The translations under genes were made by a program, and so were the position numbers. The notes under the pieces were generated by a model. That model was not told where the DNA came from and did not search any database. It was given only the letters and a program-made list of their open reading frames with translations. This document shows, piece after piece, positions 15,137-44,205 of a stretch of DNA of 64,000 bases. The DNA is from Thermodesulfobacteriota bacterium (GTDB taxonomy: Bacteria; Desulfobacterota; Thermodesulfobacteria; Thermodesulfobacteriales; Thermodesulfobacteriaceae), in assembly GCA_030550555.1 (NCBI GenBank), contig JAUQPD010000037.1, positions 100,628-164,627 on the forward strand. Reading direction: 5' to 3'. The first letter of the stretch is position 1. Each line of letters opens with the position of its first letter.

Positions 15137-17686
15137 TCAGAGTTCCTGAGTAACCTCTCTAATTTCAAAGGCCTCAATAAGGTCACCCTCTTTCACATCG
15201 TTAAAATTTTCTATCTTGAGTCCGCATTCATAACCGGCTGGCACTTCTTTGACGTCCTCCTTGAACCTCTTGAGGCTTGCAATTTTACCTGCGTAGATGA
15301 CCACACCATCTCTTATCACTCGTACCTTGTGATTTCTATTTATTACACCTTCTTTCACATAACAACCTGCCACAATTCCAACCTTGGGCACCTTAAAGGT
15401 AGCCCTAACCTCAGCAATACCTCCGATCACTTCTTCAATCTTTGGTTCAAGAAGGCCTGCCATTGCCTTCTTAATGTCTTCAAGGAGATGATATATTACA
15501 TCGTAGAAACGGATATCTACTCCCTCTTGTTTGGCAACTTCCTTTGCCTGTGAAGTTGGCTTGACATTAAAACCAATTACAATGGCTTCAGAGGCGGATG
15601 CAAGCATTACATCACTCTCTGTTATAGCTCCAATACCCGCTCTTATCACAGAAACTTTTACCTTTTCTGTAGACAATTTGGCAAGGGAACTCTGAAGAGC
15701 TTCCAGTGTTCCCTGTGTATCCGCTTTAAGGACAATTTTTAACTCTTTAAGCTCGCCCTCTTTGAGTTTGTCAAAGAGCTTTTCAAGAGAGATCTTGACT
15801 GTTTTTGCGGTTTCAGCTTCTCTTGCCTTCCTCTGTCTGTATTCTGCTACCTTTCTTGCCTTTTCCTCATCTTCCATGACAATAAAGTCATCTCCTGCAT
15901 GAGGCAAACTCTCAAAACCAAGAATTTCAACTGGCATTGAAGGGGTAGCAGATTTTACTCTATTTCCGTAGCTATCAAACATGGCTCTGACTCTGCCATA
16001 GGTGGTCCCACTCACAAAGGCATCTCCCTCTTTCAGGGTTCCCTCTTGAATAAGGACTGTCGCAACAGGTCCTTTTCCCTTATCAATCTTGCTTTCAATT
16101 ATCCTTCCCCTTGCAGGACGGTTGTAGGCAGCTTTGAGCTCAAGCATCTCTGCCTGAAGCAAGACGAGTTCAAGGAGGTCCTCAATACCGATCTTGTTTC
16201 TTGCAGAAATATTGGCAACCAGTGTATCTCCACCCCAATCCTCAGGGACAAGACCGAGTTCTGCAAGTTGTGCTTTGACTCTTTCAGGATTGGCGTTAGG
16301 CTTGTCAATCTTGTTTATGGCAACTACAATTGGGACACCCGCTGCTCTTGCGTGTTCTATTGCTTCTTTTGTTTGATCCATTACTCCGTCATCAGCAGCC
16401 ACAACAAGTATTACGATATCCGTAACCTGAGCACCTCTTGCTCTCATTGAGGTGAAGGCTTCATGTCCAGGCGTATCTATGAAAGTTATTTTTCTTCCAT
16501 CATCTAAGGTGACCATATAGGCACCAATGTGTTGGGTAATTCCTCCTGCTTCTTTACTTGCAACATCGGTCTTTCTGATAGCATCAAGGAGTGTAGTTTT
16601 TCCGTGGTCCACATGTCCCATAACTGTAACTACAGGTGGTCTAGGAGAAAGCTCTTCAGGGGATGGCGGAGTATATTGAAGAAGAAGTTCTTCTTCAATG
16701 GTTGCCTTCTCTACCTGATAACCGAACTCGTCAGCAAGAATTCCTGCGGTATCTGCATCTATAGATTGTGTAATCGTGAGTGGCATCCCTAACTGAAGTG
16801 CCTTCTTGATGAGATCTCCCACCTTAACTCCCATTAATTTTGCGAGTTCCCCAACCTGGATAGACTCATAGATCTTTATCTTCTTCTCCTTTGGAGGAAG
16901 AGTTGGAGGTCGTGTGGAGACAGATTCTTTCTTGTGAGTTCCCTTTGGAACCTTTCTCTCTTCTAACTCCTCCTCTGCAAAGTCCTCAAAAAGAGGTGGA
17001 ATCTCATCTTCAAAATATTCTTCTAACTCCTCTCTTCTCTCTCTCTTTAGTGAGACAGCCTTCTTTTTTGGTTTCTTTTTCTCTTCCGTAATTTCAAAAT
17101 CTTTTTTCTTTCTCTTTACCTCCTCCTTTTCTTCTTTCACTCCAGGAAATTGTGATTCAGGAGTGAGGGGTTTTCTGTCTTCTGGATGTGGTCTTGGCTT
17201 AAAGATCCGCTCTTTGCGGGGTTTAAATTCAGTAACAATCCGCCTTTCAGTAGGGGTTTCTACAGGTGGTGCCTCTTGGAGAGGACTCTCTTCAGAAAGG
17301 GTCCTTACCTCTTCCTGGAGAGGACGGATCTCTTTCTCTTCTTGAGGCTTTTTCTCCTCTACAGCCTCTGTAGTATCTTCAGAAGGCTGTGGTTTGACAG
17401 TTTGTTCTGCCTTGCGACGAACAACAAGTTTTCGTCTCTTTGGAGGCTCAATTGAAGGTGCAGTCTCTTGAGCTTTTGAAACCTCCTCTTCCTTTCTGAG
17501 CTCCTCTTTCTTAATAACGATGACCTCTTTTTTAGTAAAAAGTTTTTTTATTTCCTCTGCCTCAGCCTCTGAAATGGTAGAAGATGGGCCCTTCACAGTT
17601 ATTCCACGGTCTTTGAGTTTCTGTAAGACCTCTCTAACATCGACATGCAACTCTTGAGCTAATTCAGATACCTTAATTTTAGCCAT
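15137..17686 (-). CDS. infB: Translation initiation factor IF-2
   Basis: IF2_N domain; PPVVTVMGHVDHGKTTLLDAIRKTDVASKEAGGITQHIGAY GTPase core. Confidence 0.97.
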   Translation of the reverse strand: MAKIKVSELAQELHVDVREVLQKLKDRGITVKGPSSTISEAEAEEIKKLFTKKEVIVIKKEELRKEEEVSKAQETAPSIEPPKRRKLVVRRKAEQTVKPQPSEDTTEAVEEKKPQEEKEIRPLQEEVRTLSEESPLQEAPPVETPTERRIVTEFKPRKERIFKPRPHPEDRKPLTPESQFPGVKEEKEEVKRKKKDFEITEEKKKPKKKAVSLKRERREELEEYFEDEIPPLFEDFAEEELEERKVPKGTHKKESVSTRPPTLPPKEKKIKIYESIQVGELAKLMGVKVGDLIKKALQLGMPLTITQSIDADTAGILADEFGYQVEKATIEEELLLQYTPPSPEELSPRPPVVTVMGHVDHGKTTLLDAIRKTDVASKEAGGITQHIGAYMVTLDDGRKITFIDTPGHEAFTSMRARGAQVTDIVILVVAADDGVMDQTKEAIEHARAAGVPIVVAINKIDKPNANPERVKAQLAELGLVPEDWGGDTLVANISARNKIGIEDLLELVLLQAEMLELKAAYNRPARGRIIESKIDKGKGPVATVLIQEGTLKEGDAFVSGTTYGRVRAMFDSYGNRVKSATPSMPVEILGFESLPHAGDDFIVMEDEEKARKVAEYRQRKAREAETAKTVKISLEKLFDKLKEGELKELKIVLKADTQGTLEALQSSLAKLSTEKVKVSVIRAGIGAITESDVMLASASEAIVIGFNVKPTSQAKEVAKQEGVDIRFYDVIYHLLEDIKKAMAGLLEPKIEEVIGGIAEVRATFKVPKVGIVAGCYVKEGVINRNHKVRVIRDGVVIYAGKIASLKRFKEDVKEVPAGYECGLKIENFNDVKEGDLIEAFEIREVTQEL

Positions 17687-18545: not shown

Positions 18546-19357
18546 TTAGACAACCAGCAGTCGCAGGATATTTCTATCCTGGAAGAGTTGAAGCCCTTAT
18601 TGAAACCCTTGAAGAGCTAATTGAATTTAGTGAGGACAAGATCTCAGCAATAGGAATTGTTGTTCCTCATGCGGGATACATATATTCCGGAAGGACTGCA
18701 GGTAAGGTTTACGGAGCCATTGAACCTCCAGATGTTGCAATCATTCTTGGACCAAACCATACAGGGCTTGGGCCTGAAGTTTCACTCTTCTCTGGTGAGG
18801 CCTTTCTTACGCCTCTTGGAGAGGCCAAAATTAACAAGGAACTCTCGGAACTCCTGCTTAACACTTCACCACTCTTTTCCCCTGACACCCTTGCCCACAA
18901 GAGAGAACACTCCCTTGAAGTTCAGATTCCCTTTCTACAGTATCTAAACCCAGAAATTGAGATTGTTCCCATTTGTGTGGGGCATCTCTCTCTTGAGGAA
19001 ATCCGAAATATTGGAGAAGCTCTTGCCCATTCAATTGAACAATTTGAGACCTCAACTGGCAAAGAGGTTTTGATTGTTGCAAGTTCTGACTTCTCTCATT
19101 ATGAACCTCAGCTTGTTGCAAAAACAAAAGACTCCCTTGCTATTCAGGAAATACTAAACCTCTCTGAAGAGGGACTACTCAGAGTTGTATACAGAGAGAG
19201 AATTAGTATGTGTGGGGTCTATCCAGTCGCTATTACCATCTTGGCATCAAAACTTCTTGGAGCAGAAGAGGCAATCCTTGTTGAATACAGAACTTCAGGA
19301 GACATAACTGGAAACTTTTCGGCAGTTGTTGGTTATGGAGGAATTATAATCTATTGA
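18542..19357 (+). CDS. amrB: AmmeMemoRadiSam system protein B (Memo family)
   Basis: RQPAVAGYFYPGRVEAL, VVPHAGYIYSGRTAGKVYG, EHSLEVQIPFLQYL, SSDFSHYEP. Confidence 0.92.
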   Translation: MIRQPAVAGYFYPGRVEALIETLEELIEFSEDKISAIGIVVPHAGYIYSGRTAGKVYGAIEPPDVAIILGPNHTGLGPEVSLFSGEAFLTPLGEAKINKELSELLLNTSPLFSPDTLAHKREHSLEVQIPFLQYLNPEIEIVPICVGHLSLEEIRNIGEALAHSIEQFETSTGKEVLIVASSDFSHYEPQLVAKTKDSLAIQEILNLSEEGLLRVVYRERISMCGVYPVAITILASKLLGAEEAILVEYRTSGDITGNFSAVVGYGGIIIY

Positions 19358-19371
19358 GGAGAGAGAGCTAT

Positions 19372-20757
19372 ATGGTAGTCACAAGGTTTCCGCCAAGCCC
19401 AACAGGACATCTTCATCTGGGTGGAGCAAGAACTGCCCTTTTTAATTACCTCTTTGCTAAAAAAAACGGTGGAAGGTTTATTCTTCGCTTTGAAGATACC
19501 GATAGAGAGAGGTCCAAAGAAGAATATGTCACCTCCATCATTTCTGCTCTTGAATGGTTAGGATTACATTGGGACGAGGGACCCTATTTTCAGAGCAAAC
19601 GATTTGAGCTCTATCAAGAATATGCACGGAGACTCTACGAGGAAGGGAAGGCCTATTACTGCGAATGTTCAAAGGACTTTCTTGAGGAGAGAAAGAAGAT
19701 CCTTCAAGGTCACGGGCTTAAACCTCGTTATGAGGGTTTTTGTCGGGAAAAAAACCTGCCACCAGGACCTGGAAGAGCTCTGAGAATAAAAGTATCGGTA
19801 GATAGTGAAATAGTTTTTGAAGACCTTCTTAGAGGAAAAATTGTCTTTCCTCCAGACGAGGTTGATGATTTTATTATTTTACGCTCAGATGGAACTCCAA
19901 CTTATCACTTTGCAGTAGTAGTTGACGACATTACCATGGGAGTAACTCATGTTATTAGGGGAGATGATCACATATCAAACACTCCTAAGCAGTTAATAAT
20001 TTATGAAGCCCTTGGGGTTGAGCCTCCTAAGTTTGCTCACATCCCCATGGTCCTTGGGCCTGATGGTGCAAGATTATCTAAAAGACATGGAGCACGATCT
20101 ATTCTTGAATACAAAGAGGAGGGCTATCTTCCTCAAGCGGTTATTAACTATTTAGCTCGTCTTGGATGGGGCTATGGAGATCAGGAGTATTTCACAATGG
20201 AAGAGCTTATCGAAAAATTTGATCTTTCAAGGGTAAACCTATCTCCTGCTCGTTTTGATCCAGACAAATTCTTAGCCATCAATGCTTACTGGTTAAGGGC
20301 CTTCTCCGCAGAGGATATCTATCCTCATCTGCTACCATTTATTTCTCACTACAATCTTTCAAAGTATCCAAAGGAAAAACAAATTGAAATGGTTAACAGT
20401 GTCAGAGTGCGAGTTAAGACCCTAAAAGAACTTGCAGAGATGATCGACTTTTATTTCTTTGATGAGGTCTCATTTGATGAGTCAGCAAAAACTAAGGCCC
20501 TAAGGCCTGAGCTTCTTCCCTATCTCAAAGCCTACATGTCTGAAATTGAGGGTTTAGACTTTGAAGATGAAAAACATCTTGAAGCTCATTTCAGAGAGTT
20601 TGCTGAAAGGCACAGTCTTAAGGTTAAGGACCTTGCCCAGGCCATACGAGTTGCTCTCACTGGAAAACTCATTAGCCCACCACTCTTTGAAGTCATGAGG
20701 ATTCTCGGAAAAGTTGAGGTAAAGAGAAGACTCGAAAAAGCCTTACAGTCAATTTAA
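19372..20757 (+). CDS. gltX: Glutamyl-tRNA synthetase
   Basis: TRFPPSPTGHLHLGGARTALFNYLFAKKNGGRFILRFEDTDRERS; LSKRHGA; ATG at 19372 chosen over TTG 19354. Confidence 0.95.
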   Translation: MVVTRFPPSPTGHLHLGGARTALFNYLFAKKNGGRFILRFEDTDRERSKEEYVTSIISALEWLGLHWDEGPYFQSKRFELYQEYARRLYEEGKAYYCECSKDFLEERKKILQGHGLKPRYEGFCREKNLPPGPGRALRIKVSVDSEIVFEDLLRGKIVFPPDEVDDFIILRSDGTPTYHFAVVVDDITMGVTHVIRGDDHISNTPKQLIIYEALGVEPPKFAHIPMVLGPDGARLSKRHGARSILEYKEEGYLPQAVINYLARLGWGYGDQEYFTMEELIEKFDLSRVNLSPARFDPDKFLAINAYWLRAFSAEDIYPHLLPFISHYNLSKYPKEKQIEMVNSVRVRVKTLKELAEMIDFYFFDEVSFDESAKTKALRPELLPYLKAYMSEIEGLDFEDEKHLEAHFREFAERHSLKVKDLAQAIRVALTGKLISPPLFEVMRILGKVEVKRRLEKALQSI

Positions 20758-20774
20758 AAGAGGGGGGAGGATCT

Positions 20775-20945
20775 ATGTGGGAAGTCCTGATTATTGTTGC
20801 GGTATTAGTTATTTGGTTTTTTGTTTCACGTTATATTTTCCCTAAAATGGGTATCCCTGTCTGAGGAATGCCATATAACCCTCCTGGAGAGGGGAAAGAG
20901 AGACAAGGCTACGGTAAAGAGGAGGAAAAGAAAACCTGTAAGTAG
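20775..20945 (+). CDS. Candidate small membrane selenoprotein; in-frame UGA at codon 30 (20862-20864) read as Sec
   Basis: SD aggggggagg 4 nt before ATG; translation MWEVLIIVAVLVIWFFVSRYIFPKMGIPV-U-GMPYNPPGEGKERQGYGKEEEKKTCK-stop(TAG); stem-loop CCCUC-CUGGA-GAGGG at 20879-20893 after the UGA; SelB encoded at 42265..44205. Confidence 0.6.
20879..20893 (+). promoter_or_regulatory. Candidate bacterial SECIS stem-loop
   Basis: 5-bp perfect stem with 5-nt apical loop CUGGA; the loop Gs lie 22-23 nt after the last base of the UGA. Confidence 0.45.
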
Positions 20946-20986: not shown

Positions 20987-24062
<3,076 letters not shown>

Positions 24063-42264: not shown

Positions 42265-44205
42265 ATGAAGCTCCAGTCCTCTCAAGTCACTAAAAAAGCC
42301 ATTGTAGTAGGCACAGCAGGGCACATAGATCATGGGAAGACAAGCCTTGTCAAGGCCCTAACTGGTATTGATACAGACAGGCTTAAAGAGGAGAAAGAGA
42401 GAGGAATAACTATTGATATCGGTTTTGCAAGCCTTGTCCTTCCCTCAGGACATCTCATTAGTATTGTCGATGTTCCTGGGCATGAAAGATTTATCAGAAA
42501 TATGGTTGCTGGTGCCTCTGGAATAGATCTTGTAATGCTTGTTATCTCTGCAGATGAAGGTGTGATGCCTCAGACAAGGGAACATCTTGAAATTTGTGAA
42601 TTTTTAGGAATCAAAAGTGGCTTTGTAGTTTTGACGAAAGTAGATCTTGTTGATGAAGAATGGCTTGAATTTGTTAGAGAAGATGTAAAGGAGTTTTTAA
42701 AGGGCACTTTCTTAGAGGGAGCTCCCATAGTGCCTTTTTCCTCTGTAACTTTTCAGGGAAAAAATGAAATCTTAAGAATTCTCGAAGAGATGGCTGAAAG
42801 AGTAACTTCTAAAGACCTGGATCAACCCTTCAGGATGCCAATTGATGGGGTTTTTACGGTTAAAGGCTTTGGGCTCATTGTCAGAGGAACAGCCTTAAAC
42901 GGCATTGTCCATTTAAATCAGGAATTAATTATCTATCCACAGAAAAGACCAGTAAAGGTCCGTAATATCCAGGTTCATGGAGTAAACAGAGAGAGTGCCC
43001 ATGCGGGAATGAGAACCGCACTCAATATCACGGGAATTGAAAAGGATGAAGTTAGTCGTGGAGATGTGATAGCAGAGCCTGGAATTTTAGAGCCCTCACA
43101 ATGGCTTGATGTAAAAATTAGAACCATAAAAGACCTGGATCCTCCACTTAAGAACTTTGAAAATCTTCTCCTCTATTTAGGTACTGCTGAGATTACCGCA
43201 AAATTGATCCTCTTTATGAGAGACAACTTGGGAGCTAAAGAGGAAGATGTTGCCCAGCTTTTTCTGGAGAAGCCTGTTGTTTGTTGGAGAGGAGATAGAT
43301 TCATTCTCAGAAGACCTGGCACGAACCAGACAGTTGCTGGTGGCTGGATACTAAATCCTCTTAGCTCAAGAAGGAAAAGAACAAAACCTTGGGAAAAAAA
43401 GGAGTTGGAACTACTTACAACTACTAATACATCAGATCTTATACTTTATCTGCTTAACAAAAAGGGCCCTCTTGGGTTAAACAAAAGAATTTTAGCCTTA
43501 ACTCTCTCAATTTTTGGGAAGAAATTGGAGGAAGAGTTAAATAAAGTTAGAGCCAATCTCCTTGAATTGCGTCAAGGAGATGAGAATTATCTCTTCACAA
43601 GAACTTCACTTGAGGAATTGAAAGATGATATTCTTGAGAAGCTTAAAAAGTATCATGAAAACAACCCCTTCAGTCCTGGCATATCAAAAGAAGCACTTAG
43701 GACAAGACTTGGACTAGAGGTTAGAGATATTCTCTATGAGCAAGCTTTAGAGGAACTGGTCAAAGAAAATAAAATTGTTAGAGAGAAAGAGCTTTATTTC
43801 CTTGCAGAGTTTAAAGCTCTGTCATCAGGGGAGGTTGAAGAGCTTAAATGGCAAATAGAACAAAAGTTTTTAAAGGAGGGGCTTACACCTCGCGACTTTG
43901 AGGAGATTTTACTTGACTTTAAGGAGAACTATCAGGCAATATCGGAGCTCTCCAAAACCCTTCTTCGCGAAGGAAAACTCGTAAAATTAACGGAAAAACT
44001 GGTCTTTCATAGACAAATTCTGGAAGAGGTTAAACAAAAGGTTTTGGAATATTTTAGGAAAAAAAATGAATTGACTATCAGTGATTTTAGAGTGCTTGTA
44101 GGTGAAGGAGTTAGTAGAAAATATTTGATACCTTTACTTGAATATCTGGACAAAGAAAAGATAACCTTAAGAATTGGGGATAAAAGAGTTCTTAGGAAAA
44201 GGTGA
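42265..44205 (+). CDS. selB: Selenocysteine-specific translation elongation factor
   Basis: [44 protein letters not shown]...[43 protein letters not shown]; domains II/III plus C-terminal winged-helix repeats. Confidence 0.95.

Follow-up and report, generated by a model that had tools for sequence, protein, structure and literature searches.

A widespread, previously uncatalogued family of membrane-anchored bacterial microproteins with a predicted selenocysteine

A 56-codon gene at 20775..20945 on the forward strand of the 64,000-nucleotide stretch analysed here (the window), from a member of the Thermodesulfobacteriota, very probably encodes a small membrane selenoprotein. It belongs to a widespread, previously uncatalogued family of membrane-anchored selenoprotein microproteins; we put the probability of selenoprotein identity, judged in silico, at about 0.95. 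The gene occupies the 229-bp gap between gltX (19354..20757) and trpS (20987..21982), both on the same strand. A strong Shine-Dalgarno region (gaggggggaggatct, 20758..20774) stands just past the gltX stop and 5' of the ATG, and most homologues likewise have an SD-like sequence ahead of the start codon. The frame meets an in-frame UGA at codon 30 (20862..20864) and ends with TAG at 20943-20945. Translated with TGA as U, it reads MWEVLIIVAVLVIWFFVSRYIFPKMGIPVUGMPYNPPGEGKERQGYGKEEEKKTCK, which the family hidden Markov model recovers in its own genome at E=5e-18, with exactly one TGA. The original prediction had every one of these coordinates and letters right (gap, SD, ATG at 20775, TGA at codon 30, TAG). 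Its reading of codon 30 as selenocysteine (Sec) in a membrane-anchored protein is supported by the UGA column, constraint past the UGA, the SECIS element, the decoding machinery and Sec/Cys exchange.

A tblastn search of 60 related genomes returned many TGA-containing relatives of the readthrough protein, each with exactly one in-frame TGA in the same column; the same method found no match among plasmids and phages. One weak match of the first homologue search, L024, does not belong to the family and was set aside. A profile built from 29 sequences identifies the family in 113 of 252 Desulfobacterota genera and 173 of 396 genomes of that phylum, almost always as a single copy and with TGA present in every match listed. 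A larger profile of 103 sequences is positive in 49/198 Acidobacteriota and 19/200 Planctomycetota genomes. Its sole matches in Chloroflexota (1/151) and Verrucomicrobiota (1/196) are the seed genomes themselves, and the background of the profile is therefore near zero. When an exact DNA pattern ending in TGA was searched across GTDB species genomes, 80 of 80 among the matches listed proved on inspection to be members. Named carriers among the matches listed include Geobacter sp. OR-1, Geomobilimonas luticola, Pelotalea chapellei and Thermodesulfatator autotrophicus. Metagenome-assembled genomes, labelled here by their record titles, add Nitrospirota, Acidobacteria, Planctomycetes (one titled Candidatus Kuenenia stuttgartiensis), KSB1, Armatimonadota, Spirochaetes, Eisenbacteria, Gemmatimonadota, Verrucomicrobia, Chloroflexi, Marinimicrobia and Myxococcales. 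Judged by sequence matches, the family spans hundreds of bacterial genomes in about a dozen phyla, some of them identified by record title alone. The family is pan-bacterial and shows no restriction to Thermodesulfobacteriota. Members are mostly about 45-75 residues long.

The codon at the Sec position is nearly uniform. Among 168 members inspected it is TGA in 165, TGT in two and TGC in one; in the 103-member alignment the only invariant positions are this column and a glycine at Sec-4. The consensus around the UGA is mostly PKLG[VI]xTU[MLA]SxxC, with conservation on both sides. Pooled over 55 close pairs, which are non-independent, pN/pS is about 0.28 past the UGA and 0.13 before it, with synonymous change past the UGA probably restrained by the SECIS element as well. 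Homologues that all stopped at codon 29, with nothing conserved beyond, had been named as grounds for rejection; the post-UGA part is instead conserved and under purifying selection.

The notion that no Cys homologue exists was overturned by searches of Planctomycetota and Acidobacteriota. The Sec/Cys alignment sought at the codon-30 column occurs in three members, with the sequences GIPTCMSGGC (L197), GMQTCLSGMC (L199) and GIGTCMSGAC (L229). All three are in genomes without SelB, whereas SelB is found in every genome tested that carries the Sec form in Planctomycetota (15/15) and Acidobacteriota (21/21). By our own arithmetic, which ignores relatedness, a split of 0/3 against 36/36 would arise by chance about once in 9000 trials. 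Three further loci upstream of dapB (L023, L028, L030) have a vicinal Cys-Sec pair (..CUQ..) in place of PTU, together with a different tail.

Three components of the machinery for decoding UGA as Sec are encoded in the window's genome; a lack of such genes had been named as a further point on which the prediction could fail. It has a tRNA-Sec (84.7 bits, anticodon TCA), selA (613 bits) and selB (TIGR00475, E=3.8e-111). The last of these lies in the window, as claimed, at 42265..44205 on the forward strand; this ORF is the only one in the window with a SelB-type GTPase N-terminus besides IF-2 at 15137-17686. Across Desulfobacterota the family is carried by 168 of 362 SelB-positive genomes compared with 5 of 34 SelB-negative ones (Fisher p=2.4e-4), and among Sec-form genomes of mixed phyla 28 of 31 score above the SelB cut-off. 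Carriers with no SelB match over the cut-off comprise the five Desulfobacterota genomes and those of L098, L107 and L137. The SelB-less Sec-form genomes in question are draft assemblies, and in the genome of L107 part of SelB is found where a contig ends, which does not prove that SelB is merely missing from the data.

A candidate bSECIS hairpin lies past the UGA. The perfect stem-loop CCCUC-CUGGA-GAGGG at 20879-20893 is present as predicted; the attached caveat, that a loop beginning CU made the match approximate, falls because an alternative register, CUCCU-GGAG-AGGGG (20881..20894, forward strand), has a 5-bp stem and a loop that opens with GG at a spacing of 21 nt from the UGA. The published bSECIS rule asks for a G within the first two loop positions, a spacing of 16-37 nt and an MFE of -7.5 or below (PMC13188914). 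The window's element satisfies it, the 60-nt segment folding at -9.1 kcal/mol. Compared with synonymous shuffles, the window hairpin by itself is borderline (p about 0.07), so the selenoprotein case rests on the family-wide hairpin, the UGA column and its flanks, where conservation is far beyond chance.

For 106 non-redundant members the mean hairpin score is 16.1, against 5.7 in codon shuffles that preserve the protein, and 71 of the 106 hairpins individually reach p<=0.05 by synonymous-codon shuffles. With the loop placed at nt 23, stem columns pair at a frequency of 0.692, compared with 0.486 (sd 0.016) when partner columns are shuffled and 0.30-0.53 when the stem is slid to other registers. 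Stem position 6 alone includes CG 17, GC 16 and TA 15 times. The covariation proposed as a check is thus present in the family stem, with strong compensatory changes. Taken with the machinery, this comparative evidence makes it nearly certain, in silico, that codon 30 is decoded as Sec by SelA, SelB and SelC with the aid of a bSECIS hairpin, which lies 14-28 nt downstream in the family. Two Nitrospirota loci that follow rpoA-rplQ, L068 and L071, show no hairpin meeting the standard bSECIS rule, while their frame and C-terminal Cys are conserved; their SECIS may be of another class.

Gene context varies by lineage. In Thermodesulfobacteria gltX customarily stands before the family gene, and in the window's genus trpS comes after it; the gene lies behind rpoA-rplQ in Nitrospirota and ahead of dapB in some Thermodesulfobacteriaceae (several of the neighbour names in this paragraph were assigned by eye from sequence). 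The gltX, rpoA-rplQ and dapB contexts look like housekeeping positions, and the gltX/trpS neighbours are uninformative on function. In six Desulfobacteraceae loci (L080, L086, L115, L128, L143, L145) 40 nt separate the Sec gene from a downstream gene for an ECF sigma factor. This is followed in L080, L086 and L115 by a likely zinc-finger anti-sigma gene, recognised by eye from an HxxxCxxC-type motif, and an anti-sigma-like gene of the zinc-finger type is also found near the Cys form of L197.

Close downstream genes, such as these sigma factors at 40 nt, would suit a selenium-sensing leader ORF, a recoding switch for the neighbouring gene whose own product has no role. We consider this very unlikely, since the protein sequence is conserved while its neighbours change (gltX/trpS, rpoA-rplQ, dapB, sigma factors, thioredoxin) and the Cys versions retain the protein without recoding. 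An ordinary membrane peptide of 29 residues ending at the UGA, with accidental or regulatory conservation downstream, would be a legitimate small protein but is scarcely credible given conserved in-frame codons past the UGA (pN/pS 0.28), UxxxxC in 124 of 166 members, TGA throughout rather than TAA or TAG, replacement of TGA by Cys codons in genomes without SelB, and covariation of the SECIS stem.

The selenoprotein itself is predicted to be simple in form. An AlphaFold2 model of the window protein shows one helix at residues 2-24 (codons 20778..20846), with a block pLDDT of 90 or more over residues 1-20 and a low-confidence tail that is probably disordered; the helix segment is hydrophobic in all members and is taken as a single transmembrane (TM) helix. 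Net charge among family members is -0.62 over the first four residues and +1.60 over the 14 residues before Sec, and by the positive-inside rule this distribution predicts an N-out/C-in orientation. The Sec had been placed just outside the helix. That placement is borne out, at about six residues beyond it, and can be refined to a predicted position just inside the cytosol.

Between 12 and 51 residues follow the Sec, and a Cys lies downstream of it in 161 of 166 members, most often at Sec+5 (124/166) and less often at +6 (12/166). It lies further along the tail in the window's genus, in several Nitrospirota and in several Acidobacteriota members. In the window protein the Cys is residue 55 (20937..20939), or Sec+25. 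The suggestion that a C-terminal Cys could serve as partner to the Sec therefore agrees with a near-universal feature of the family, although the window's example stands far from the usual place.

Operon-like neighbours were examined for clues to function. The first set (n=107) contains eight thioredoxins, seven FmdB zinc ribbons, six ECF sigma factors and four ArsR regulators, with DUF302 (3), rhodanese (3), YgaP-like TM proteins (2) and CcdA (2) less frequent. A second set, of 37 unbiased and three hand-added proteins, yields YgaP-like TM proteins (4), thioredoxin (3), TauE (2) and six rhodanese matches, three of which are attributed to the hand-added rhodanese-type proteins and hence discounted. 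The control of 140 randomly drawn non-operon neighbours gives about three thioredoxin-type folds, one YgaP-like TM protein and no rhodanese in its top lists, single matches below those lists being possible. It was scanned in two parts; the second, 37 of the 140 genes, includes Geobacter CcdA/TlpA, and its addition weakened the thioredoxin enrichment. The resulting enrichment toward thioredoxin- and rhodanese-type neighbours is modest and suggestive.

In the clearest instance, the Cys form of L199 lies between a metallo-beta-lactamase/rhodanese gene resembling persulfide dioxygenase and a gene resembling sulfide:quinone oxidoreductase (SQR), both scoring below NCBIfam naming cut-offs. Relatives of the upstream gene occur no more than 1.7 kb upstream in five more loci (L092, L107, L118, L231, L235). 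The SQR-like protein (L199:1695-2948) has as its nearest NCBIfam model 'type III SQR, selenoprotein subtype', at 259 bits against a cut-off of 525, in a genome without SelB. Adjoining the Acidobacteriota Cys form, L229:783-1517 resembles the bacillithiol deacetylase BshB1 at 150 bits (cut-off 182.5). At L081:1145-1660 the Sec frame reads on into a thioredoxin, without an intervening stop or a clear SD, a possible natural fusion; at L108:6477-6905 the Sec protein is similarly continuous with an FmdB-type zinc-ribbon protein. AlphaFold folds both parts of the L081 product but gives the Sec segment low confidence, and the model therefore shows no docking.

Operon partners of the thioredoxin, rhodanese, YgaP-like TM, ArsR and DUF302 types, the L199 context and the in-frame thioredoxin of L081 lead us to propose, tentatively, that the protein is a membrane-tethered selenol/thiol relay between oxidants or sulfane-sulfur donors on the membrane side and thioredoxin or rhodanese. 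Its single helix would hold it in the membrane N-out/C-in, presenting the Sec in a short disordered cytosolic tail, where the tail Cys (most often Sec-x4-Cys) could pair with it as a selenenylsulfide. From a partner linked to the membrane or to quinones, such as one resembling SQR, the protein would accept either sulfane sulfur or disulfide oxidation, and would then hand it over to thioredoxin or to rhodanese/persulfide-dioxygenase proteins. A narrower and more doubtful candidate reading makes it a Sec persulfide carrier through which rhodanese, thioredoxin and persulfide dioxygenase would be tied to SQR-type chemistry at the membrane. If true, a persulfide relay of this kind would be an unrecognised component in many anaerobic and sediment bacteria, with Sec kept almost wherever the Sec system exists.

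Two other roles appear unlikely, in similar degree. The selenoprotein might act at the membrane in binding or detoxifying metals or metalloids (Hg, As, Cu), as could be suggested by the four ArsR-family regulators and by the RND-type transporters that adjoin L075, L116 and L124 and occur twice in the second neighbour set. Yet classical mer and ars enzymes are absent from the most frequent neighbour families, and ArsR-family repressors can respond to persulfides too. It might otherwise serve a larger membrane enzyme, either as a small accessory subunit or as a factor in its assembly, the Sec acting as a ligand or redox site. Single TM microproteins commonly serve as subunits, and some neighbours are NrfD-like or, by eye, like bd-type oxidase subunits, but in the neighbour sets no one membrane enzyme recurs from lineage to lineage.

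If the sampling holds, the family ranks with the more widespread selenoproteins of bacteria, present in about 44% of Desulfobacterota, 25% of Acidobacteriota and 10% of Planctomycetota genomes sampled. In searches of Pfam and NCBIfam none of 103 members matched beyond weak TM-helix noise (E >= 0.002), the window protein alone had no match in Pfam, NCBIfam or PHROGs, and an Rfam scan of the region returned only chance snoRNA matches. The 119 prokaryotic selenoprotein families listed in a table of 2026 (PMC13188914) include none that fits by description or motif. The family is thus uncatalogued in Pfam, NCBIfam, that table and the open literature, an earlier informal mention being possible. Its absence from gene catalogues follows from gene callers that stop at codon 29 and from current selenoprotein finders that depend on Cys homologues.

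The catalogued prokaryotic selenoproteins (PMC13188914) share with this family UGA recoding by SelA, SelB and SelC, the bSECIS element and a redox-type U...C arrangement. They differ in that Cys homologues are said to be general among them, whereas in the new family Cys forms account for only 3 of 168 members. The 2025 deep-Sep study remarks that Cys homologues now seem to exist for every known selenoprotein, and that its filter may lose Sec-only families (PMC12013277); the family falls nearly within that blind spot, and its omission would be so explained. It offers a tractable route to asking why selenium beats sulfur at some sites. The cytochrome GSU2937+GSU2936 from a 2007 stop-codon screen (PMC1914089) was likewise a candidate bacterial selenoprotein whose TGA is conserved and for which no Cys homologue was then known, but it is an unrelated multihaem cytochrome for which no SECIS was found.

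The nearest likeness in architecture is to eukaryotic SELENOK and SELENOS, which have one TM helix at the N-terminus, a type III topology and an unstructured cytosolic tail with Sec (PMC10650576), an arrangement that the predicted topology of the new family would resemble. SELENOS also forms a Cys-Sec selenylsulfide (PMC10650576). In those proteins the Sec is second or third from the C-terminus and the tail is glycine-rich, while in the new family the Sec is near the membrane with 12-51 residues after it, and the SECIS, unlike theirs, lies inside the coding region. The Pfam models for SELENOK and SELENOS gave no match, and the family is an analogue of these proteins rather than a member of their families; it brings to bacteria a short membrane architecture resembling theirs.
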